The notes under the pieces: model-generated
What the model was told of the DNA's origin: nothing
Seen by the model: only the letters and a program-made list of their open reading frames with translations
Database searches by the model: none
In this document: positions 4,459 through 19,651 of the stretch, piece after piece
Layout: each line of letters starts with the position of its first letter
How positions within the stretch are numbered: position 1 is the stretch's first letter
Made by a program: the position numbers and the translations under genes
From: Bacilli bacterium
GTDB taxonomy: Bacteria; Bacillota; Bacilli; Alicyclobacillales; SLC66
Direction: 5' to 3'
NCBI GenBank assembly: GCA_013044175.1
Contig: JABEUY010000028.1
Span: forward strand, 1 to 32,814
DNA length: 32,814 nt

Positions 4459-5835
4459 TTACTTTTGGGCAACCCAATCCGCTTGAATACTTTCCATTGT
4501 CCTCCCAGACGTTTCAGGCACTTTTCTTTTCATGAAAATCGCCATAATCACACAAAACACTGCAAAAATCCAGAAAGTAATCGTACCTCCGACAGCTTGT
4601 AAAAGTATCGGAAAGAACTGAGCGACAAGATAAGTCGCAAACCACAGGGCAAACGAAGCGATCGACATCGCCCGCCCACGTATGCTATTAGGATAAATCT
4701 CAGCAAGTACAATCCACACACCACCGCCCCAAGATAATTCATAAGCAATCGTATGCAAGAAAACTAAACCCATAACCAGCCAAGTGATCATATGTGGCAA
4801 GGCAAAAACAAGGCCAAGCAACCCAAGAAAGATCGCCATAAAATAACCATTCCAAACGAGCAAACGTTTACGCCCAATACGATCGACGATCAACATCAAC
4901 ACAATAACGAAGACAACCTTAATCGCGCCAATCCATACTGTGTCATAAAAAGAAGCATTGACCCCAGCACCTGCCGCTTTAAAAATCATCGGCGCATAAT
5001 AGCCAACCGCATTTGTTCCCGTGAATTGTTGAAAAATCGCGAGTAACACCCCAATGCCAAGCGCTTTTCGAATACCTGGACTGGTGATCTCTTGAAAAAA
5101 AGAATCCGGTACGATTTGTAGAGATTCACGAATCAAATTCACTTCTATTCTGGCTTTTTCAGTTCCATTTACTCGCGACAGCGTGTGCATAGCTGCTTCT
5201 TCTTGATTTCTCTTCATCTGAAAGCGTGGACTTTCCGGAACGAAAAATAAGAGGAAAAAGAAAATAAGTCCCGGAATTACGCCCATCGCAAACATATAGC
5301 GCCAACCTTCAGTCTGATTCCAAACCGTCGAATGCGTACTCACGATGGCAGCGTTTACAAAGTAGACAATAAATATACCTGAAACGATGGCTAATTGATT
5401 TGAACCAATAAGACGACCTCGTATTTTTGCAGGTGCGATTTCAGCAATGTACATGGGGGACAAGAGCGACGCAAGTCCAATTCCAATTCCACCAAGAAAA
5501 CGACCAAGAACAAGCAGGGTAACTCCATTCGCACTAGCCGTGATCAAACTACAGATAATAAAAGTAAGACCAGCAACCATAAGCGCCTTTTTTCTTCCAA
5601 TCGCGTCACCAAGAACTCCTGCTACAACGACACCGACCATCGCCCCTAGATCAATACTACTTGAAACAAGACCTGTCATACCTGCATTCAAGTGAAATTC
5701 TGATTTCAAAAAATCATTGGCACCTGCGATCACACCGGTATCATAGCCAAAAAGTAAGCCGCCAAGTGATGCGATCATCACAACGATCGTAATAAAGCCA
5801 AGCGATGCCATCGATTCCTGTTGTTTGACAGACAC
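4459..5835 (-). CDS. sugar porter family MFS transporter (sugar or uronate:H+ symporter)
   Basis: A 458-residue protein of the sugar porter branch of the major facilitator superfamily (XylE/AraE/IolT type). Visible hallmarks are GYDTGVIAGA in helix 1, GRKKAL after helix 2, the PESPR motif at the end of helix 6, DRIGRKRLL after helix 8 and PETSGRTMESIQ at the C-terminus. About 12 helices are present. The start is GTG at 5835, eight bases after GGGAGG. An ATG two bases upstream is out of frame. It diverges from the LacI-type regulator gene and shares with it an operator-bearing promoter region. With the uronate operon nearby, galacturonate or a related sugar acid is the likely substrate. This is inference, because sugar porters usually carry neutral sugars or inositol. 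Confidence 0.85.
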   Translation of the reverse strand: MSVKQQESMASLGFITIVVMIASLGGLLFGYDTGVIAGANDFLKSEFHLNAGMTGLVSSSIDLGAMVGVVVAGVLGDAIGRKKALMVAGLTFIICSLITASANGVTLLVLGRFLGGIGIGLASLLSPMYIAEIAPAKIRGRLIGSNQLAIVSGIFIVYFVNAAIVSTHSTVWNQTEGWRYMFAMGVIPGLIFFFLLFFVPESPRFQMKRNQEEAAMHTLSRVNGTEKARIEVNLIRESLQIVPDSFFQEITSPGIRKALGIGVLLAIFQQFTGTNAVGYYAPMIFKAAGAGVNASFYDTVWIGAIKVVFVIVLMLIVDRIGRKRLLVWNGYFMAIFLGLLGLVFALPHMITWLVMGLVFLHTIAYELSWGGGVWIVLAEIYPNSIRGRAMSIASFALWFATYLVAQFFPILLQAVGGTITFWIFAVFCVIMAIFMKRKVPETSGRTMESIQADWVAQK

Positions 5836-5913: not shown

Positions 5914-5926
5914 TGTTAATATAACA
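5914..5926. promoter_or_regulatory. operator TGTTA-N3-TAACA for the LacI-type regulator (perfect palindrome)
   Basis: TGTTAATATAACA is a perfect palindrome with 5-base arms. It lies in the divergent region and overlaps the AT-rich -10 area of the minus-strand transporter promoter. The same arms recur at the kdgK promoter (13739-13751), which makes binding by the adjacent LacI-family protein likely. Confidence 0.6.
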
Positions 5927-5966: not shown

Positions 5967-5979
5967 TGTTAATTTATCA
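5967..5979. promoter_or_regulatory. imperfect second operator
   Basis: TGTTAATTTATCA matches the TGTTA-N3-TAACA pattern with one mismatch. It lies about 23 bases before the -35 box of the regulator gene. Together with the perfect site 53 bases away it could allow looping or autoregulation. Confidence 0.35.
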
Positions 5980-6056: not shown

Positions 6057-7058
6057 ATGATCACGATGGCCGATGTCGCAAAAGAAGCTGGCGTATCCAT
6101 CATGACCGTATCGCGGGTGGCTACAGGTACGGGATACGTCAAAGAAGGAACGCGTAAAAAAGTGTTGCGCGCTATGAAAGCTTTAAACTATAAACCTAAA
6201 AAAACAACGCTTGAAAATTTAGAAGCGGGCAAGATGACGCTTGCCTTGATCGTCCCTGACATTACCAATCCTTTTTACACGTTAATCGCCCGCGGTATGG
6301 AAGATGTAGCACGCAAAAATGGCTACCGAGTTTTTATCGCAAACACCGATGAAAACTTGGATAAAGAGTCCGAATACATCGATATGTGCATTTCTTTAAA
6401 CGCTGACGGGGTACTGATTGCTCCCGTCGGTGATCCCTCTGCACAAAGTCTCCAGTTGCTCGCAAAAGCTACCATTCCTTTTGTCCTTGTCGATCGTCTC
6501 ATTCCCGGTATCGAAGCCGATACTGTCAAAGGCGATATCACCAAAGCTTCCTTTCTACTGGTCGATCATTTGCTGTCCTTAGGTCATCGACGAATTGCGA
6601 TCATCACCGGCCCATTAGCAAGCGCATCTAGCCGTGAACGACTCGAAGGGTATCGACAAGCACTTTCAGAAAGGCAAATAGCCTATGATGATCAACTTGT
6701 GGTCGAATCGGTCATGACCCGTCAAGTCGATCCCTCATTTCTTGAAGATTTACTCAGCCTAGATCCTGCTCCAACCGCGATTTTCGCCGCGAATCTCTTT
6801 CAGTATGCGCATATCTATCACTGGTTGCGCGAACATAACATCGCGATTCCCACAGCGATTAGCCTCGTATGCTTTGGTAATTCCGATACCTTAATTGGCA
6901 TCGATTCCCCTGTAACATGCGCCATTCAGCCTACTTATAATTTTGGTTCCCTTGGTACGCAGTTGTTATTAGAAAGAATCGAAGGCATTTCACTTCGACC
7001 TCGCAAAATCATTCTTGAAGCTGACGTGTCCTATCGCAACTCAACTTGCGCACGATAA
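6057..7058 (+). CDS. LacI/GalR family transcriptional regulator of the uronate locus (KdgR-like)
   Basis: A 333-residue regulator. The N-terminal helix-turn-helix is plain: MADVAKEAGVSIMTVSRV, then the hinge region with LNYKPKK and a short LENLEAGKM linker. The remainder is a periplasmic-binding-like effector domain with LALIVPDITNPFY, GYRVFIANTDEN, ADGVLIAP, VDRLIPG and the GHRRIAIITGP strand. Proteins of this family are usually repressors released by a sugar-derived ligand. Position and shared operators point to control of the divergent transporter and the kdgK operon; KDG or a uronate is a reasonable effector guess. ATG at 6057 follows GAGG by 9 bases. A second ATG at 6066 is too far from it. 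The C-terminus has no dedicated U-tract terminator, only the hairpin at 7082-7126. Confidence 0.9.
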   Translation: MITMADVAKEAGVSIMTVSRVATGTGYVKEGTRKKVLRAMKALNYKPKKTTLENLEAGKMTLALIVPDITNPFYTLIARGMEDVARKNGYRVFIANTDENLDKESEYIDMCISLNADGVLIAPVGDPSAQSLQLLAKATIPFVLVDRLIPGIEADTVKGDITKASFLLVDHLLSLGHRRIAIITGPLASASSRERLEGYRQALSERQIAYDDQLVVESVMTRQVDPSFLEDLLSLDPAPTAIFAANLFQYAHIYHWLREHNIAIPTAISLVCFGNSDTLIGIDSPVTCAIQPTYNFGSLGTQLLLERIEGISLRPRKIILEADVSYRNSTCAR

Positions 7059-7156: not shown

Positions 7157-8233
7157 CTACCTCACCAAAATATCCGGAAATACAAACTGCTGCTCCCCCT
7201 CTTCGACAACAATCGTCGGCCACTTTACAGGAGCTGTTAGATTAACATTGCCTTGCGCTTCGATCAGATACGTATCCTCTGCTTTTACACCTTGAATGGT
7301 AGGATTCCAGGCAACTACCATACCCGCTTGTAATCGTAGCGACGTATCGGCTACCGCTTTTTTCTCCCGCGAAAGATATCCCGCGAGACCACCTTGATGA
7401 TGTTGTTTCCATTCTTGCGGATACCCCACCTTAGCGTAAGCGGCGACACCCTCTTGAAAAGCCTCGCCCAACGTTCGCCCCACCTGACTTGCCTTTAACA
7501 ACGAAGCGTGTACACGAAGTACGGCTTCATAACGTTGCCTCCATAGATCAGGTACTTTATCAAAAAAGATCATCCGCGTCATCGAAACGGTCAATCCATG
7601 CCGTCTAGCGCCCACAGAGAGGATCGCGTACTCACCTAACTTTTGATTCGTCGGCGTACCATGACGGTAACAAACCGCCCTGCTTGCACTTGCGATAAGA
7701 TTCACGATCGGTTCAATGCCACGGCGCAAGCAAGCTTTTGCAACAAGTCCAGCGACCTCATTTTCAGTTTGCCCTGACCGTAACTGCGGACAAACTTCTT
7801 CGATAGCCAGCGCAGTTTCTTGTCCAAGCGTCCTCACATCTTGTAAACTTGAATCTGTAAGGACATAACGCAGCGTTGCGATTTCTTCCTTGACAGCCGA
7901 TTCCTCAACAATATTTCGTCGAGCGAGCCATCGTGTTTTTGTTCCATTGCGAAGCGACTCATCATACCAAGGATAGATAATCAATCGATCACCGACGAGA
8001 TGTTCTTCACGTTGTAGGCGCTCAACTTCGATCGAATTAACGAGGACTTCAACGCTATCTTCGGTGACCAATACCTCGATACAAGCAATATGCGTTGCGA
8101 TGCTGATATGATAATGACCTTGAAATAACCAATTCACCGAAGCTTCCTCAACTAAAATGACGCCATGCAAAGATCGTTCCGAAAGCAACCGACGAATCGC
8201 TTCGATACGCTTCGTAAACTCATGATCATTCAT
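7157..8233 (-). CDS. M24 (pita-bread) family protein lacking most metal ligands, last gene of the uronate operon
   Basis: A 358-residue protein with the two-domain layout of aminopeptidase P/creatinase-type M24 proteins: an N-terminal domain of about 130 residues, then the pita-bread fold. By comparison with the E. coli PepP pattern, four of five metal ligands are replaced. The two Asp positions are Ser206 (AILSVGA) and Ser217 (VSMTRM), the His is Gly282, and the first Glu is Asn310 (AWNPT). Only Glu319 (KAEDT) remains. His278 and His279 persist near the usual active-site loop. A dinuclear metallopeptidase activity is therefore unlikely. Creatinase shows that this fold can work without metal, so a hydrolase or binding role on a small metabolite is possible. 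It starts one base after the IolB-like stop, so it belongs to the operon. Residue assignments are by eye. Confidence 0.7.
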   Translation of the reverse strand: MNDHEFTKRIEAIRRLLSERSLHGVILVEEASVNWLFQGHYHISIATHIACIEVLVTEDSVEVLVNSIEVERLQREEHLVGDRLIIYPWYDESLRNGTKTRWLARRNIVEESAVKEEIATLRYVLTDSSLQDVRTLGQETALAIEEVCPQLRSGQTENEVAGLVAKACLRRGIEPIVNLIASASRAVCYRHGTPTNQKLGEYAILSVGARRHGLTVSMTRMIFFDKVPDLWRQRYEAVLRVHASLLKASQVGRTLGEAFQEGVAAYAKVGYPQEWKQHHQGGLAGYLSREKKAVADTSLRLQAGMVVAWNPTIQGVKAEDTYLIEAQGNVNLTAPVKWPTIVVEEGEQQFVFPDILVR

Positions 8234-8234
8234 C

Positions 8235-9023
8235 TTACGCTTTTACCCATTGGTGACTCGGATCGTCATGAGGAATCATCACGCGATCCTGAGACCCTGC
8301 CATCATCCATAAGTAGTAAAGCTGATACCCTCCCGCAGCACACACGGGATGATACCCTTTATCAATCAAAAAAGTGTCACCATGCTGAACACGAAACGCT
8401 TGATCTACCGACCCATCCAACGTATATTGCGCCTGCAAACCGAATCCTTCTTTTGGATTGAGCTGGTAATAATAAATTTCTTCCATTTGTGCTTCAACCT
8501 GCGGAATATAATCGTCGTGTTTATGGGGCGGAAAACTCGACCATTTCCCCGCTGCATTGAACGTTTCGCCAACGATGATACGGTGCACTTTTCCTTGCGC
8601 ATTTTTCACGATGATATCATGCACTTCACGTTGCCATGCCTCTTTACCGACCACTCGGGATTCCACATCGTCCGGACCGACCATAAAGGGGGCAAATACT
8701 TCTTGAGAAGGTGTCCCGCACACCGCAATTCGAGTTGTTGTCATGACTCGTACTTGATAATTAGTCTTTGCCGGTACGTAGACTGCTGTCGCTTTTCCGG
8801 CAAAAACATGCTCCCTGGATCCTGAAAAAACTTGCTGATTTACCGTGACTTGCATCGTCCCCTCAAGCAAAACCAGCACTTTCTCCTCATCTCCGGTTTG
8901 TCCTTCATACCTTTCATCGGCGCCAAGATGCAATAAAGCAAACGTTAGTAAATTGAGTTTTCCATTATCCTTGCCCACAATTTCTTGATAGCCTTTTACT
9001 TCTTTATTTCGAATGACCGTCAT
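8235..9023 (-). CDS. IolB/KduI-type cupin isomerase (5-deoxy-glucuronate isomerase-like)
   Basis: A 262-residue bicupin of the KduI/IolB family (265 if GTG at 9032 is the start). The C-terminal cupin holds the metal-site pattern: GKWSSFPPHKHDD, then EEIYYYQ and the DKGYHPVCAAGGY strand, supplying the His-His-Glu-His set. Family enzymes ring-open and isomerise sugar acids: IolB converts 5-deoxy-glucuronate in inositol breakdown, and KduI converts 5-keto-4-deoxyuronate in pectin breakdown. The sequence looks closer to IolB, yet no other iol gene is here. In this operon an aldose-to-ketose uronate isomerase (UxaC) is missing, and this protein is the best candidate to fill that step. ATG at 9023 follows the weak AAGAG by about 8 bases; GTG at 9032 has an even weaker site. 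Confidence 0.85.
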   Translation of the reverse strand: MTVIRNKEVKGYQEIVGKDNGKLNLLTFALLHLGADERYEGQTGDEEKVLVLLEGTMQVTVNQQVFSGSREHVFAGKATAVYVPAKTNYQVRVMTTTRIAVCGTPSQEVFAPFMVGPDDVESRVVGKEAWQREVHDIIVKNAQGKVHRIIVGETFNAAGKWSSFPPHKHDDYIPQVEAQMEEIYYYQLNPKEGFGLQAQYTLDGSVDQAFRVQHGDTFLIDKGYHPVCAAGGYQLYYLWMMAGSQDRVMIPHDDPSHQWVKA

Positions 9024-9038
9024 GGCAAACACTCTTTT

Positions 9039-10523
9039 CTATTCGTATTGTTGAATCGTTGCTACGACACCGTAACGTCGAAGTTGTTCAAGATCAAACG
9101 TGACGTGATCAACAAAACCCGGGATTTGACTTAAGTCTTCACCCCAAAAAGCAAGATCGGAACAAATGGCCTGCACACTCCTGCGTAATCCTTCTTGATG
9201 CTCAAGCTCCCAAGCCTCTTTAAGACGATCTTGCTTGCCGACGTCATCACGCCAAACCCAAGATCGCGTAGCTTGCGTTGCTGGATGGGTAAAAAGAAGT
9301 TGACCAGCAAAGGCCAACATAAGATGCGCAGGTAAACGGTTTTGTAATTGGTAATACGACAAAATCGAAGGCAATACGCGTTCGCGTAATTTGGCAAGCA
9401 TATTTAATTGCAAGGAAGCGATCGCATGATGCAGCAAGGGATTCGTAAAGCGTTCGATCACATCGTTCGTAAAGTTCACAACATCAGATTGAGCGAGCGT
9501 CGAATTTTGTAATGATACATGCACCTCCTGCTCCAAAAGATGTTTTATAAAAGTTCCAATCACAGGATGCTGTATCGCTTCACGCACCGTCTCAAGCCCC
9601 GCAAGGGTTGCCAAACCAGCAAGCGACGTGTGCGCACCATTTAAGATGCGAACTTTAATCCGGCGAAAAGGGGTAACATCCGCCACGTAACGAACACGTA
9701 ATCCAAGTTGTGAAAACGGTAATTTGGCTGCGATTTGGTCATCCCCCTCAATGACCCAGAGATAAAACGGTTCACGCAAGATACCATTTTTGTCCTCATA
9801 CGTTACCGACGATGGCAAATCTGCTGAACCTGGTGACTGAAAAGCGGTAACAATGCTATCAACTAGCGTATTGTAAAAATGATTAGCTTCCTTTATATAA
9901 AAAATAAAACCGTCAGGAAGGTGCCAATCTTGCGCATGACGCAAGACGATCTCACGCAATTGATCACCATTTTGTTCAATTAGCTCGCAAGGAATAATCA
10001 TCATTCCCGTCTGCGGATCACCATCAAACGCCTGATAACGAGCATAAAGATAGGCGGTCACTTTTGCCGGAAATGAAGCCGGACAACGATGCGGATCATA
10101 CGGTTCCGTTTCATAGGCAATACCAGCTTCTGTCGTGTTCGATAGGATTATGTCGATCGTTCGATTTTCAGCACAGCGAAGAATCTCCTGCCAATTTTCA
10201 TACGGATCGATAGCCCTAGCGATCGATTGAACGATTTCCGCTTGATCGATCACTTGTGCATTCTCATTTCCACGCAACCAGACCGTGTAAAGACCGTCTT
10301 GGTCATTGATTTCTTTAATCTTTTTGGCTCCTGACGCAAGTGGCGTGACAACAACCACACTACCGCCAAAAAGTCCACCTTGATTCAATCGGTGAAACAG
10401 CCAATCGACAAAACCTCGCATAAAATTACCCTCGCCAAACTGAATCACTCGCTCAGGATGAAGGGGCAACCATTCGTTTTTACGATGTTCTTCCAACCAA
10501 GCACGCGTCAATAAAGAAGCCAT
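9039..10523 (-). CDS. uxaB: tagaturonate reductase (altronate oxidoreductase)
   Basis: A 494-residue NAD-dependent dehydrogenase of the mannitol/altronate dehydrogenase family; the length matches UxaB (EC 1.1.1.58). The N-terminus carries the family motif VIQFGEGNFMRGFVDW, followed by VVVVTPLASG and DGLYTVWLRG. The C-terminal half has KVRILNGAHTSLAG with the conserved Lys and His. It reduces D-tagaturonate to D-altronate, the second step of galacturonate breakdown. Fructuronate reductase (UxuB) is a relative, but pairing with an altronate dehydratase favours UxaB. ATG at 10523 is preceded by AAAGGTG. It lies 30 bases after uxaA and 15 before the IolB-like ATG, in the six-gene operon. Confidence 0.9.
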   Translation of the reverse strand: MASLLTRAWLEEHRKNEWLPLHPERVIQFGEGNFMRGFVDWLFHRLNQGGLFGGSVVVVTPLASGAKKIKEINDQDGLYTVWLRGNENAQVIDQAEIVQSIARAIDPYENWQEILRCAENRTIDIILSNTTEAGIAYETEPYDPHRCPASFPAKVTAYLYARYQAFDGDPQTGMMIIPCELIEQNGDQLREIVLRHAQDWHLPDGFIFYIKEANHFYNTLVDSIVTAFQSPGSADLPSSVTYEDKNGILREPFYLWVIEGDDQIAAKLPFSQLGLRVRYVADVTPFRRIKVRILNGAHTSLAGLATLAGLETVREAIQHPVIGTFIKHLLEQEVHVSLQNSTLAQSDVVNFTNDVIERFTNPLLHHAIASLQLNMLAKLRERVLPSILSYYQLQNRLPAHLMLAFAGQLLFTHPATQATRSWVWRDDVGKQDRLKEAWELEHQEGLRRSVQAICSDLAFWGEDLSQIPGFVDHVTFDLEQLRRYGVVATIQQYE

Positions 10524-10553
10524 TTCTTCACACCTTTCTGTTCCGGAAAATCA

Positions 10554-12059
10554 CTACAGCGTCACACCATCTTTAAAAATTGCGATTTCTCGAAATGCAT
10601 TTTGCTCATTTTTCGTCATCGTCTTTCCAGAAGCCACATCAATGATCTGCCGATAGAGTTCTGCAGCAAGATCATACTGTGTACTACCCGTCAAAAGACG
10701 TCCGGCATCAAAATCGATCCAATGCGGTTTTTGGCTAGCCAGTGTCGAGTTCGTTGCAATTTTTAGCGTAGGTACGGCACCGCCAAGTGGCGTGCCACGA
10801 CCGGTTGAGAACAATACGATATGCGCACCGGCATCGATGAGCGCTGTTACGGATACCATGTCATTACCTGGTGCTTCAACCAGATTTAATCCAGCATTTA
10901 CCGAGACATCCCCGTAGGCAAGGACATCTTGCACCGTACTGTGACCGCCTTTTTGCGTACAACCGAGTGACTTCTCTTCAAGCGTCGTGATGCCACCCTC
11001 TTTATTACCAGGACTCGGATTTTCATAGATCACCTGGTTATGACGCGTATAGTAGTCCTTAAATGAATTGATCAAATGAACAATTTTATGAAAAACTTCT
11101 TCATTTTTTGCACGATCCATCAAAATCGTTTCAGCCCCAAACATTTCTGGCACTTCTGTTAACAGCGAGGTCGCCCCATTGGCAACCAAAAGATCAGAGA
11201 CCGCACCGATCAAAGGATTAGCCGTAATGCCCGAGAAACCATCTGAACCGCCACATTTCAAACCGACTTTGAGTTTAGCAACCGAAACAGTCTGACGACG
11301 ATCCTGCCTAGCCTGCTCGACGAGTTGTTCAATTTTCGCCATGCCTTCTTCCCATTCATCTTGCACACTTTGTACTTGCAAAAAGAGAATGCGTTGTTGG
11401 TCGTATTGACCCAGATGCGGTAAAAAATCTTGGATACGATTATTTTCGCAACCTAACCCGAGAACGAGCACACCGGCTGCATTAGGATGACTTACAAGAC
11501 CTGCCAACGCTTTTTGCGTATACAAAAGATCGCCACCAAGTTGCGAACATCCATAAGGATGCGCGAAATGATACACGCCATCGACACCTTGACCGGCAAA
11601 CCGAGCATGCGCAGCGGCAGCAAGGCGCTCTGCGACTTTATTGATGCACCCCACCGTGTTGATGATCCAAATCTCATTACGAATTCCGACCTCACCATGG
11701 GTACGGACGTACCCTTCAAAAAACTGAGGTAGTGTTTCGTCCGCATTGTTTTTTTCCGACAATGCGACAGGTTGATACGTATAATCCAATTTCCCACTAA
11801 GATTGGTTACCAAATTATGCGCATGAACATGACCACCTTCCGGCACATCGCTGATCAAATGACCAATCGGTGCCCCATACTTCATCACGTGGTCGCCAAC
11901 CGTTAAATGACACAACGCCATTTTGTGACCTTTCGGTATTTTTTCCTTAGCAACAATCGACCTTTCATTCAAGACAAACGCTTCGCCAGGTTCGACATCA
12001 CGCAGTGCGACAGAAACATGATCATGAGCATGTATCTGTAAAAATGCGGATTCAGCCAT
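10554..12059 (-). CDS. uxaA: altronate dehydratase
   Basis: A 501-residue fused altronate dehydratase (EC 4.2.1.7). An N-terminal SAF domain of about 100 residues (VSVALRDVEPGEAF, GDHVMKYGAPIGH) is joined to the catalytic UxaA/GarD domain. That domain shows NEIWIINTVGCINK, HPYGCSQLGGD, LGLGCENNRI, GLKCGGSDGFSGITANP and VLFSTGRGTPLGGAVP. The enzyme removes water from D-altronate to give 2-keto-3-deoxygluconate in the cytoplasm. Full length suggests it is intact. The ATG at 12059 lies 4 bases after the eda stop, so translation is probably coupled. Confidence 0.92.
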   Translation of the reverse strand: MAESAFLQIHAHDHVSVALRDVEPGEAFVLNERSIVAKEKIPKGHKMALCHLTVGDHVMKYGAPIGHLISDVPEGGHVHAHNLVTNLSGKLDYTYQPVALSEKNNADETLPQFFEGYVRTHGEVGIRNEIWIINTVGCINKVAERLAAAAHARFAGQGVDGVYHFAHPYGCSQLGGDLLYTQKALAGLVSHPNAAGVLVLGLGCENNRIQDFLPHLGQYDQQRILFLQVQSVQDEWEEGMAKIEQLVEQARQDRRQTVSVAKLKVGLKCGGSDGFSGITANPLIGAVSDLLVANGATSLLTEVPEMFGAETILMDRAKNEEVFHKIVHLINSFKDYYTRHNQVIYENPSPGNKEGGITTLEEKSLGCTQKGGHSTVQDVLAYGDVSVNAGLNLVEAPGNDMVSVTALIDAGAHIVLFSTGRGTPLGGAVPTLKIATNSTLASQKPHWIDFDAGRLLTGSTQYDLAAELYRQIIDVASGKTMTKNEQNAFREIAIFKDGVTL

Positions 12060-12063
12060 CTTG

Positions 12064-12696
12064 TTATCTCACCTTTCTCACAAAATTTTCGGCTCGTAGG
12101 GTGATCGCAGCATAATCCTTGCTTTCAATCTCCTGTTTTGGTGTTAAAAAACTTCCCGCGCCAACGACAGATACCCCCGCTTGAAAGAAGGACAACACGT
12201 TATTTTCATCGATACCACCGGTTGCCATGATGGGAAATCCAGCAAATGGACCGAGAATATTTTGGACAAAGGTAGTCCCTACAGTACTTGCCGGAAAGAT
12301 CTTCACCATAGAAACACCGAGTTTTCGCGCTTGTTGCAACTCACTTGGCGTCATGATACCCGGCACGATCGTTACACCCGCCTCATTAGCCTGCCGAATC
12401 AATTCAGGGTCAAGGTGCGGACAAACGATAAATGAAGAGCCGGCATGGATAGCATCGATCAATCGATCTGGCGTGAAAACCGTTCCGGCACCGATCAATA
12501 CCTCGTTACCCAAGGCAAGACGCAAACGTTCAATCTGTTTTTTCCCGTCATCGCCCTCCATCGTCACCTCAAGCGCCCGGATGCCACCCTTGACAAGCGC
12601 TTCTCCGATCGCTTCGATTTTTGCTAATGGCAATCGGCGCAAAACTGCGACGATTTTTTCTTGTTGTAATCGCACAATCACATTCGTTTCCATCAT
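12064..12696 (-). CDS. eda: KDPG/KHG aldolase
   Basis: A 210-residue class I aldolase (EC 4.1.2.14). The Schiff-base lysine is Lys132 in MVKIFPAST, the catalytic Glu43 lies in RALEVTMEG, and GAGTVF and ATGGIDENN form the phosphate-binding barrel loops. It splits 2-keto-3-deoxy-6-phosphogluconate to pyruvate and glyceraldehyde-3-phosphate, the last step of the pathway. The ATG at 12696 overlaps the kdgK stop by 4 bases (ATGA), which indicates coupled translation. A second ATG at 12693 is also possible. Confidence 0.93.
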   Translation of the reverse strand: MMETNVIVRLQQEKIVAVLRRLPLAKIEAIGEALVKGGIRALEVTMEGDDGKKQIERLRLALGNEVLIGAGTVFTPDRLIDAIHAGSSFIVCPHLDPELIRQANEAGVTIVPGIMTPSELQQARKLGVSMVKIFPASTVGTTFVQNILGPFAGFPIMATGGIDENNVLSFFQAGVSVVGAGSFLTPKQEIESKDYAAITLRAENFVRKVR

Positions 12697-13697
12697 CGCG
12701 TCACTTCACTTTCCCCAGCTAGGTAACGATCGACCGTTTCGGCATCTGGATAACCACTGGCATCACCAAGGCTCGTCACAGCATAAGCTCCGAGGATCGA
12801 GCCCCGTTTAAGCGCTGCGTCAACAGAATCTCCCCGCAGTAACCCCGCGATAAATCCAGCATTAAATCCATCACCAGCGCCGACCGTGTCGACCACTTGA
12901 TCGACGGGGATAATCGGACAATCGATCTCTTCGCCTTGAAGACAAGCGGTAGAACCCTGAGCGCCTTTTTTTACTACAATTCCATGTCCTTGAAAGCCAA
13001 GTTCACGTAGCAACAATTCCAATTTCTGCGGGTTCACCATTTGAAAAAGAAAATCCGCCTCTTCATCACCAAGAAAAAGCCAATCAACATAGCCAATCAC
13101 TTCGCGAAGATTTTGCAACCAAGCCTCATGATCGCCCATTTTTCGGCGTACATTGATATCAAAAGAAATCGGGATACCGTTTTCATGTGCCATCCCTAAA
13201 ATCCGATCTGTTTCTTGGCGAGCTTTTGCACTAACCATTCGCAAAATTCCTGTCGTATGAACCCATTGATAACAGTCTGTTAACAGGTCGTTCACACAAG
13301 CATCTGCACGCCAATCACCAACTGCCATCGGTGAAAGCGTACGATAAGAAAGAACAACAGGGTCTTTTTGCAGGGGATTACGCTTCTTAAAAAGCACGCC
13401 AGTCTGACGAGTTGGCACCACATCAACATGCTTTACCTCCACCATCTCAGCACGTAGCTCACGCAAGATAAATTCGCCAAACAAATCATCGCCGACCGCA
13501 CCCGCAAAAGTGACAGGAACCCCCATTCTACCTAGCGCAATCGCTGTGTTAAGTTCCGCCCCTGCAAGATCGAGCAAAAAGCGACGATCAAGACTGAGAC
13601 GTTCTAGGCTACCATGACTACAAACAACAAGCGGTTCCCCAAATGTTAGTACTCGCTTTCGCTTTTCCTGTGCCCCGAACACTTCGATTGCTTGCAT
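12693..13697 (-). CDS. kdgK: 2-keto-3-deoxygluconate kinase, first gene of the uronate operon
   Basis: A PfkB-family sugar kinase (EC 2.7.1.45) of about 334 residues. Motifs in order: VLTFGEPLVV at the start, AGAELNTAIALGRMG (PfkB signature 1 region), GVLFKKRNP, FDINVRRKMG, and DTVGAGDGFNAGF, which contains the catalytic Asp (PfkB signature 2). It phosphorylates KDG to KDPG in the cytoplasm. ATG at 13697 has AAGGTG about 5-8 bases upstream and is preferred over the in-frame ATG at 13721, which lacks a ribosome site. The promoter and operator at 13739-13782 lie just upstream, giving a leader of about 50 bases. Transcription probably continues through eda, uxaA, uxaB, the IolB-like gene and the M24-like gene. 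Confidence 0.9.
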   Translation of the reverse strand: MQAIEVFGAQEKRKRVLTFGEPLVVCSHGSLERLSLDRRFLLDLAGAELNTAIALGRMGVPVTFAGAVGDDLFGEFILRELRAEMVEVKHVDVVPTRQTGVLFKKRNPLQKDPVVLSYRTLSPMAVGDWRADACVNDLLTDCYQWVHTTGILRMVSAKARQETDRILGMAHENGIPISFDINVRRKMGDHEAWLQNLREVIGYVDWLFLGDEEADFLFQMVNPQKLELLLRELGFQGHGIVVKKGAQGSTACLQGEEIDCPIIPVDQVVDTVGAGDGFNAGFIAGLLRGDSVDAALKRGSILGAYAVTSLGDASGYPDAETVDRYLAGESEVTR

Positions 13698-13738
13698 ACC
13701 TGCACCTTTTTCTTTTAACATAAATATCGTTTTATTTC

Positions 13739-13751
13739 TGTTAAATTAACA
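13739..13751. promoter_or_regulatory. operator TGTTA-N3-TAACA at the kdgK promoter
   Basis: TGTTAAATTAACA is a perfect palindrome whose arms match the site at 5914-5926. It lies 3 bases downstream of the -10 box and covers the expected transcription start, a position suited to repression by the LacI-type protein. Confidence 0.65.
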
Positions 13752-13753
13752 TT

Positions 13754-13782
13754 ATTATAAGACGAAATATGTGATAATTCAA
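13754..13782 (-). promoter_or_regulatory. promoter of the uronate operon
   Basis: On the minus strand TTGAAT (13777-13782) is separated by 17 bases from a perfect TATAAT (13754-13759). The operator follows directly. Confidence 0.75.
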
Positions 13783-13785
13783 CAT

Positions 13786-13815
13786 AAAAAAAACGCGCAA
13801 ACCTTCGCGCGTTTT
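13786..13815 (-). terminator. terminator of the histidine kinase/DUF1345 operon
   Basis: A 9-pair stem AAAACGCGC/GCGCGTTTT (13790-13798 with 13807-13815, 8-base loop) is followed on the minus strand by a run of eight T residues. It insulates the uronate operon promoter immediately downstream. Confidence 0.8.
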
Positions 13816-18100: not shown

Positions 18101-19651
18101 TATATTTATACGTGGGGTTATCTTGGAATTGAACTTTCAGCTTGCGCTTATTTACATAACTATAGCTATCAACAAGAAGATCCTTTACTCGATGATAAAT
18201 TCCACAAAGTCATCAAAAAAAGTCCTGTCTATTCTGGCGACGATGTCGTTTCCTTAGCTGAATTTTTGCAAAAAAAATTAGCGAAAGGGCAAGGCATGGA
18301 CGTTCTCAAAGAAATCGAGCAAAGTCATTTTCGACCCAGCAAAAAATTAATGGATCATATTGGGCAAACAATCAAAGGAAATTCCTCTTATATCCTGCTT
18401 GATGAACAACTTATCGCCTATGATCGTATCTTTGCTGCAGCGAGAGATGGCTATCATCAAAAAAACAAGCGTATGATCATCATCCGTGGTGGACCTGGCA
18501 CTGGCAAATCAGTCATAGCCTTAAACGTAATGGCTGATCTGTTGCTTAAAGGCTATAACGCGCATTATGCGACAGGATCTCGCGCGTTTACTGAATCTTT
18601 GCGAAAGACCATAGGGACGCGAAGTCAGGCGCAAATCAAATACTTCAATTCCTACACAGAAGCCATGAATGAAGAGATCGATGTACTTTTATGTGATGAA
18701 TCACACCGTATTCGTATCAGTAGTGCCAACCGCTTCACCAAAAAAGAAGATCGCTCCAAAGAAGCACAAATCGATGAATTACTTAAAGCCAGTAAAGTTT
18801 CTGTATTTTTTATCGATGATCGGCAAATCGTTCGTCCTAACGAAATCGGGTCCGTGGCCTATCTTAAAGAAGCAGCCCATCGATTTCAAGCGACCGTTGA
18901 GGAGTACGAACTCGATGCGCAATTTCGTTGTAATGGTTCTTCCGACTACATCAATTGGATCAATAACACGCTTGGATTGGAACAAAATGCGAATGTACTT
19001 TGGAAAACCAGTGACTCTTCCTTTGATTTTCGCATCATGGCGTCTCCGCAAGCGGTGGAAGAAGAGATCGCAAAACGTATTGAGGAAGGTTTTACGGGTA
19101 GAATTACGGCTGGCTTTTGTTGGCCATGGTCAGATCCGGATGAGCATGGTCAATTGATCGAAGACGTCGTCATCAATGATTATCGCCGCCCATAGAATGC
19201 GAAACCTGATGCAAGAAAACTTGGTAAAGGTATCCCTAAAGCCATGCATTGGGCACAAGATTCCAATGGATTTGGCCAAATTGGTTGTATTTACACGGCA
19301 CAAGGCTTTGAATTCGATTATGTCGGTGTCTTTATTGGTCAAGATTTACACTATGATTTTGCCCAAAATCACTTCATCGGACAACCACAGTCATCATTTG
19401 ATTCTGTAGTCAAACGCGCGAAAGGGCAATTTACCGATCTTGTCCTCAATATTTATCGTGTGCTACTTTCCCGTGGGATGAAAGGTTGTTATGTATACTT
19501 TCTCGATGAAGAGACGCGCAAATTTTTTCAAAGTCGAATGAGTCCTTCCCTCGATACTACTTACAAAGAAAACGAGGAAGGCAGCGAAAGAATTCAATAT
19601 GTCGCAGAAAAGTTTGAAGATATTCCCGATTTTTTTGATGAGAAAAAATAA
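18101..19651 (+). pseudogene. decayed DUF2075 (SF1 helicase-like) gene: 5' truncated and amber-interrupted
   Basis: One reading frame runs from just after TGA at 18098 to 19651, broken only by TAG at 19193. The visible protein starts within a conserved region (ELSACAYLHNYSY) and has no proper start codon, so roughly 200 N-terminal residues of the usual protein are gone. Next come the Walker A motif IIIRGGPGTGKSVIA, Walker B VLLCDESHR and a DAQFRCNGS motif. After the TAG come NAKPDARKLGKGIPKA and IYTAQGFEFDYVGV, typical of the Schlafen-group-3-like helicase domain. At the TAG the family normally has Trp (RPWNAK), so TGG to TAG is the likely change. Such proteins are often linked to nuclease or defence modules. 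No partner is seen here. Expression of a functional product is unlikely. Confidence 0.85.

Follow-up and report, generated by a model that had tools for sequence, protein, structure and literature searches.

A predicted cupin replacement for uronate isomerase in the galacturonate operon of an acid-loving member of the Bacillota

How can a bacterium begin the breakdown of galacturonate when its genome appears to lack the uronate isomerase UxaC? This question is raised by an operon in a 32,814-nucleotide stretch of DNA (contig JABEUY010000028.1 of assembly GCA_013044175.1, from a Bacilli bacterium of the Alicyclobacillales; the whole stretch is called the window below). Profile matches to the window proteins give the minus-strand gene order kdgK-eda-uxaA-uxaB-iolB-like cupin-M24-like at positions 7157-13782. 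UxaB, UxaA, KdgK and Eda would together convert tagaturonate to pyruvate and glyceraldehyde-3-phosphate. A first-pass annotation had proposed that these four enzymes are encoded together, and each was recovered there on the minus strand (Table 1). It had also proposed that a KduI/IolB family member acts as the galacturonate to tagaturonate isomerase in place of UxaC, and this is supported by co-occurrence, by a split between clades and by operon context. We found that the cupin, encoded at 8235-9032, belongs to a distinct subfamily of the metal-dependent KduI/IolB ketol-isomerases, here called IolB-II. We consider it likely that IolB-II carries out the entry step from D-galacturonate to D-tagaturonate and replaces the non-homologous UxaC; its substrate and direction are predictions based on context and co-occurrence.

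The absence of UxaC, which had been claimed from the window, was confirmed in the genome. The source assembly (2.54 Mb, 91.6% complete, 156 contigs) gave zero matches to the UxaC family PF02614 in a whole-genome search whose controls were positive. Because of this completeness and fragmentation, absence from a single genome is not absolute, but it is backed by related genomes. We rejected the possibility of a UxaC hidden elsewhere: besides the lack of a match, the whole-genome search found no UxuA, which is the partner of UxaC in the uxaC-uxuA operon of close relatives, and 40 IolB-II genomes with UxaB are equally without UxaC.

The cupin itself is a clear member of the KduI/IolB family. Its sole Pfam match is PF04962 (265.6 bits; gathering cut-off 23.9), with no match to PF02614, and it is the only member of the family in the genome. 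Its AlphaFold model (predicted local distance difference test score, pLDDT, 95.1) resembles IolB 2QJV with a template modelling (TM) score of 0.93. UxaC is an amidohydrolase-superfamily TIM barrel. The two proteins are thus unrelated in fold and sequence, although the cupin is predicted to catalyse the step of UxaC and to take over its position in the pathway, next to UxaB and UxaA.

It is possible to read the cupin as a KduI instead, acting on 5-keto-4-deoxyuronate from pectin-lyase products in an operon that does not serve galacturonate itself. KduI shares the Pfam family and the cupin fold (TM ~0.7), its substrate is a keto-deoxy uronate, and the hosts may meet pectin fragments. However, the KduI structures are only 11-15% identical to the cupin in structural matches, and a phmmer search of the PDB returned 2QJV and no KduI. 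Additionally, a KduD-type reductase is missing from the operon genes, and UxaB and UxaA would be left without a substrate. We regard this reading as highly improbable. The KduI of Escherichia coli is relevant in another way, as the first-pass annotation had cited it as helping to convert galacturonate and glucuronate. Faster loss of both sugars was indeed found in cell-free extracts after KduI overexpression, but isomerisation to tagaturonate was put forward there as a hypothesis, and the text does not mention purified enzyme (Rothe et al. 2013; PMC3578941). The hexuronate role of E. coli KduI is secondary and occurs in a genome that possesses UxaC.

A second alternative would make the cupin a plain 5-deoxy-glucuronate isomerase (IolB), either active in inositol metabolism or a relic of it, with tagaturonate obtained in another way. 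By sequence score it qualifies, as it scores 232.4 bits against the IolB equivalog TIGR04378 (cut-off 205), and public records name such genes iolB. By the company of inositol genes, with iolD as the marker, it does not: no IolD was found above the cut-off anywhere in the genome (best 229 bits against 715). To this extent the cupin stands without other inositol genes, as had been claimed, and we rejected an ordinary inositol operon on the IolD test.

Further evidence came from 101 related genomes that were searched for UxaB, IolB (TIGR04378), UxaC and IolD. UxaB was found in 43 genomes, IolB above its cut-off in 42 and UxaC in 17. The IolB matches fell into two classes. A high-scoring class (278-387 bits) occurred in 20 genomes, and these were identical to the 20 genomes with IolD above its cut-off (Fisher p = 1.5e-21). 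The IolB-II class (206-256 bits) occurred in 30 genomes, all of which had UxaB (p = 8.8e-16). Eight relatives held both classes, at separate loci. When 64 sequences were placed in a tree, the IolD-linked IolBs formed one clade (support 100/100) well apart from IolB-II. This clade stayed intact in a wider quick tree that added 22 Clostridia-type and other members and in which a divergent sequence from G193 formed a long branch. The window cupin is 31-33% identical to IolD-linked members. The first-pass annotation had counted activity limited to 5-deoxy-glucuronate, together with iol genes elsewhere, as evidence against its proposal; for iolD, no gene above the cut-off was found, and the IolB that tracks iolD is a separate clade. 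We therefore consider it very unlikely that the cupin is an ordinary IolB.

The group nearest to IolB-II in the 64-sequence tree consists of Armatimonadota (Zipacnadia) and unclassified metagenome-assembled genomes (MAGs; loci L009-L016). These sister genes have no uxaB nearby, and the one at L012 lies near penicillin-binding protein genes. Two more tandem IolB-II-like genes were seen in the relative G015 (L125:414-2154), away from uxaB; one has a reported internal TAA stop.

IolB-II and UxaC tend to exclude each other in genomes with UxaB. Among the 43 relatives with UxaB, 26 had IolB-II only, 11 had UxaC only, 4 had both and 2 had neither (p = 1.4e-5). Surveying 398 genomes across the phylum brought in another 60 with UxaB. 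In the combined set of 103, IolB-II alone was found in 40, UxaC alone in 36, both in 8 and neither in 19 (Fisher p = 4.9e-7). Put differently, UxaC was missing from 40 of the 48 genomes with IolB-II and present in 36 of the 55 without it, which answers in the affirmative the suggestion that uxaAB operons with an iolB-like gene might lack uxaC. IolB-II-type and UxaC-type genomes coexist even inside one genus (g10). Additionally, 41 of the 48 genomes with IolB-II have this gene no more than 2 kb from uxaB.

Besides the TIGR04378 score, several observations weigh against this interpretation. Because related genomes are not independent, we rechecked the Fisher counts by phylogenetic contrasts on UxaB trees. 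The relatives gave 4 supported pairs (mean 3 opposite, 0 same) and the wide sample gave 7 pairs (2.1 opposite, 0.6 same), too few for significance in either case, even though most pairs that differed in UxaC did so in the expected direction. Eight genomes with UxaB hold IolB-II as well as UxaC. IolB-II lies away from uxaB in 7 of 48 genomes. A megaplasmid of Lachnospira eligens (L211:8971-9786) carries a lone IolB-II gene, annotated iolB, whose neighbours encode a YhcH-family protein and an SLC13 permease. Last, 19 genomes with UxaB have neither isomerase; thus, the presence of UxaB is no proof of a uronate substrate.

In G015 and G016, close relatives that have both proteins, UxaC lies within a uxaC-uxuA-SDR-eda operon, that is, in the glucuronate branch. 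The genomes G034, G041, G047 and G060 lack UxaC and carry a UxuA gene near the IolB-II operon, an arrangement that points to a possible role of IolB-II in glucuronate use as well. Three loci in genomes without UxaC or IolB-II encode a protein of about 416 residues adjoining uxaB-uxaA-uxaE (L192:3673-4929, L194:13073-14320 and L200:8251-9501). The one member scanned, that of L192, had no Pfam match, and this protein is a possible candidate for a third uronate isomerase. Two solfatara MAGs (L005:6498-13224 and L006:6281-15125) appear to carry a variant pathway, in which the neighbours of IolB-II are a UxaB-like reductase, a gene of the isocitrate/isopropylmalate-dehydrogenase family and GD_AH genes.

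The genomes with neither isomerase also raise the possibility that UxaB and UxaA are fed by another source, such as a Thermotoga-type inositol route, oxidation of L-galactonate, or imported tagaturonate or altronate, and that IolB-II performs a side reaction. The Thermotoga inositol pathway, which combines dehydrogenases with a creatininase-family protein and a TIM-barrel epimerase, yields tagaturonate; like UxaE (tagaturonate epimerase), it feeds the same UxaB-UxaA branch. Zinc alcohol dehydrogenase, creatininase-family and TIM-barrel genes lie beside uxaB in G116, G281, G358, G388 and G470, which have neither isomerase, and most of these loci also have a Gfo/Idh/MocA dehydrogenase. Gene sets of this type are joined to uxaB at L177, L191, L199, L201, L203 and L205 in Clostridia-type genomes, and G347 carries one at a separate locus in addition to its IolB-II operon. 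Because such a set would supply tagaturonate, the genomes that have it and lack both isomerases need no uronate isomerase. However, the window operon has none of these genes, nor do the minimal operons of Alicyclobacillus. For instance, A. mali (L004), whose genome has no UxaC, carries uxaA-iolB-II-uxaB together with genes for LacI and a sugar porter, and its relatives have the same core, usually with the porter. Several Clostridia-type genomes have the order TRAP transporter-M24-iolB-II-uxaB-uxaA, often with a UxaE gene (PF16257). The best PDB matches of a TRAP binding protein from such an operon are 4X8R and 4N8Y, the glucuronate- and galacturonate-bound structures (PMC11668362). It seems very doubtful, on this evidence, that another tagaturonate source accounts for the operon.

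Next to the cupin gene lies an M24-like gene (7157-8233), which was within the span of the first-pass annotation and was not discussed there. Could this protein, and not the cupin, be the replacement isomerase? Among 26 aligned members of its family, the motifs RHxxPT, HHQGG, AWNP and KxED are invariant. Of the M24 peptidase ligands D, D, H, E and E, both aspartates are replaced and one glutamate has become Asn310, while the histidine and the last glutamate are kept; the protein thus lacks the ligand set of an M24 metallopeptidase. The loss of peptidase ligands, the new invariant residues and the presence in many IolB-II operons (nearly all 26 members are beside IolB-II, and none is in the UxaC operons mapped) speak for this reading. 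On the other hand, its fold relatives are hydrolases: the model (pLDDT 94.2) resembles prolidases and creatinase, and creatinase functions without a metal. More importantly, we rejected this candidate because the M24-like protein is missing genome-wide from ten genomes (genera g10 and g13) that have IolB-II and uxaAB and lack UxaC. It is therefore dispensable, and the chance that it is the isomerase is extremely small. Perhaps it is an auxiliary hydrolase for uronate conjugates. Taken with the minimal operons of the A. mali type, these ten genomes leave IolB-II as the sole candidate in such operons for making tagaturonate.

The residues of the cupin are compatible with the proposed function of IolB-II. 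Both IolB classes keep His170, His172, His228 and Glu180/184/185, which are probable metal ligands. Residues that vary little or not at all inside a class differ between the classes at positions that include F116/R119, G155/V156, T157/V158 and W242/N243 (numbering of the window protein and of 2QJV, respectively). A kept catalytic centre with class-specific differences is the pattern expected for a change of substrate. We propose that a metal bound by the three histidines and one of the three glutamates would aid proton transfer between C1 and C2 of an open-chain aldose acid. The reaction would be an aldose to ketose conversion, as IolB performs on 5-deoxy-glucuronate, which differs from a hexuronate mainly in one missing hydroxyl.

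The features of the locus are listed in Table 1. UxaA scores 294 bits against the galactarate-dehydratase cut-off of 731, which is far below it. The lacI-type gene is convergent with the operon, and the sugar porter gene lies beyond it; homologues of this porter (72-83% identity) adjoin uxa operons in other genomes. We tried the classical LacI operator WGNAANCGNTTNCW, but its matches were not clearly above chance and the palindrome TGTTAAWTTAACA was a better fit, with sites at 13739, 13772, 5914 and 5967 and a window total of 5 against 1.3 expected. The promoter-like site, the terminator-like hairpin and the shared palindrome suggest one LacI-controlled unit, although the consensus matches are weak. 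Through this palindrome, the LacI repressor would probably control both the operon and the neighbouring porter.

Table 1. Features of the uronate operon and its surroundings in the window
Feature	Position	Strand	Evidence or remark
KdgK-like PfkB sugar kinase (2-keto-3-deoxygluconate kinase)	12693..13721	-	PF00294 156 bits; best NCBIfam match KDG/KDGal kinase, under cut-off
Eda / KDPG aldolase	12064..12696	-	TIGR01182 179.9 bits, cut-off 156
UxaA, altronate dehydratase type	10554..12059	-	GD_AH_C, GD_AH_second and SAF domains
UxaB, tagaturonate reductase	9039..10523	-	NF002969 535.6 bits, cut-off 359
IolB-II cupin (KduI/IolB family), predicted galacturonate to tagaturonate isomerase	8235..9032	-	PF04962, TIGR04378
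M24/creatinase-fold protein without peptidase metal ligands	7157..8233	-	PF00557 71.7 bits
LacI-family regulator, probable operon repressor	6057..7058	+	PF00356 and Peripla_BP_3; lacI kept beside many such operons
MFS sugar porter, probable uronate uptake	4459..5835	-	PF00083 368.8 bits
Palindrome TGTTAAATTAACA, putative LacI operator upstream of kdgK	13739..13751	+	exact match
Operator-like site overlapping -35 hexamer	13772..13784	+	2 mismatches
Operator-like site between MFS gene and lacI	5914..5926	+	1 mismatch
Operator-like site between MFS gene and lacI	5967..5979	+	1 mismatch
Sigma-70-like operon promoter TTGAAT-17-TATAAT	13754..13782	-	10/12 consensus matches; such matches also arise by chance
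Intrinsic-terminator-like hairpin parting operon from upstream genes	13790..13815	-	11-bp stem and T run

Elsewhere in the window, an open reading frame at 18266-19195 (309 aa) has a Schlafen group 3 helicase domain but spans just profile positions 1 to 249 out of 354; this gene may be broken or frameshifted.

In sum, a distinct and misannotated subfamily of IolB, with a predicted activity, most likely stands in for UxaC in this operon as a non-orthologous replacement. Our literature search, which did not cover most subscription journals, found no paper that proposed an IolB-type uronate isomerase, and none that linked uronate isomerase either to iolB and galacturonate together or to Alicyclobacillus. 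We also put forward, more tentatively and as a possibility short of a probability, that IolB-II and a metal-free creatinase-fold partner form a widespread uronate-entry module of the Bacillota, in which the partner has a new catalytic role (such as preparing open-chain or conjugated uronate), and that most '5-deoxy-glucuronate isomerase' genes beside uxaAB are misnamed.

In the acid-loving source organism, as in many relatives, a cupin seems to open the breakdown of galacturonate, a pectin sugar. If this is true, the missing first step of galacturonate use would be filled in Alicyclobacillus and in many Clostridia-type genomes. The annotation would also be corrected, as TIGR04378 now accepts IolB-II as an inositol enzyme and the common annotation is probably wrong. 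The case would be a clean non-orthologous replacement, with a close and functionally different sister family at hand for comparison. Finally, it would provide an isomerase from acid-loving, heat-tolerant bacteria that may be of use in the conversion of pectin waste.

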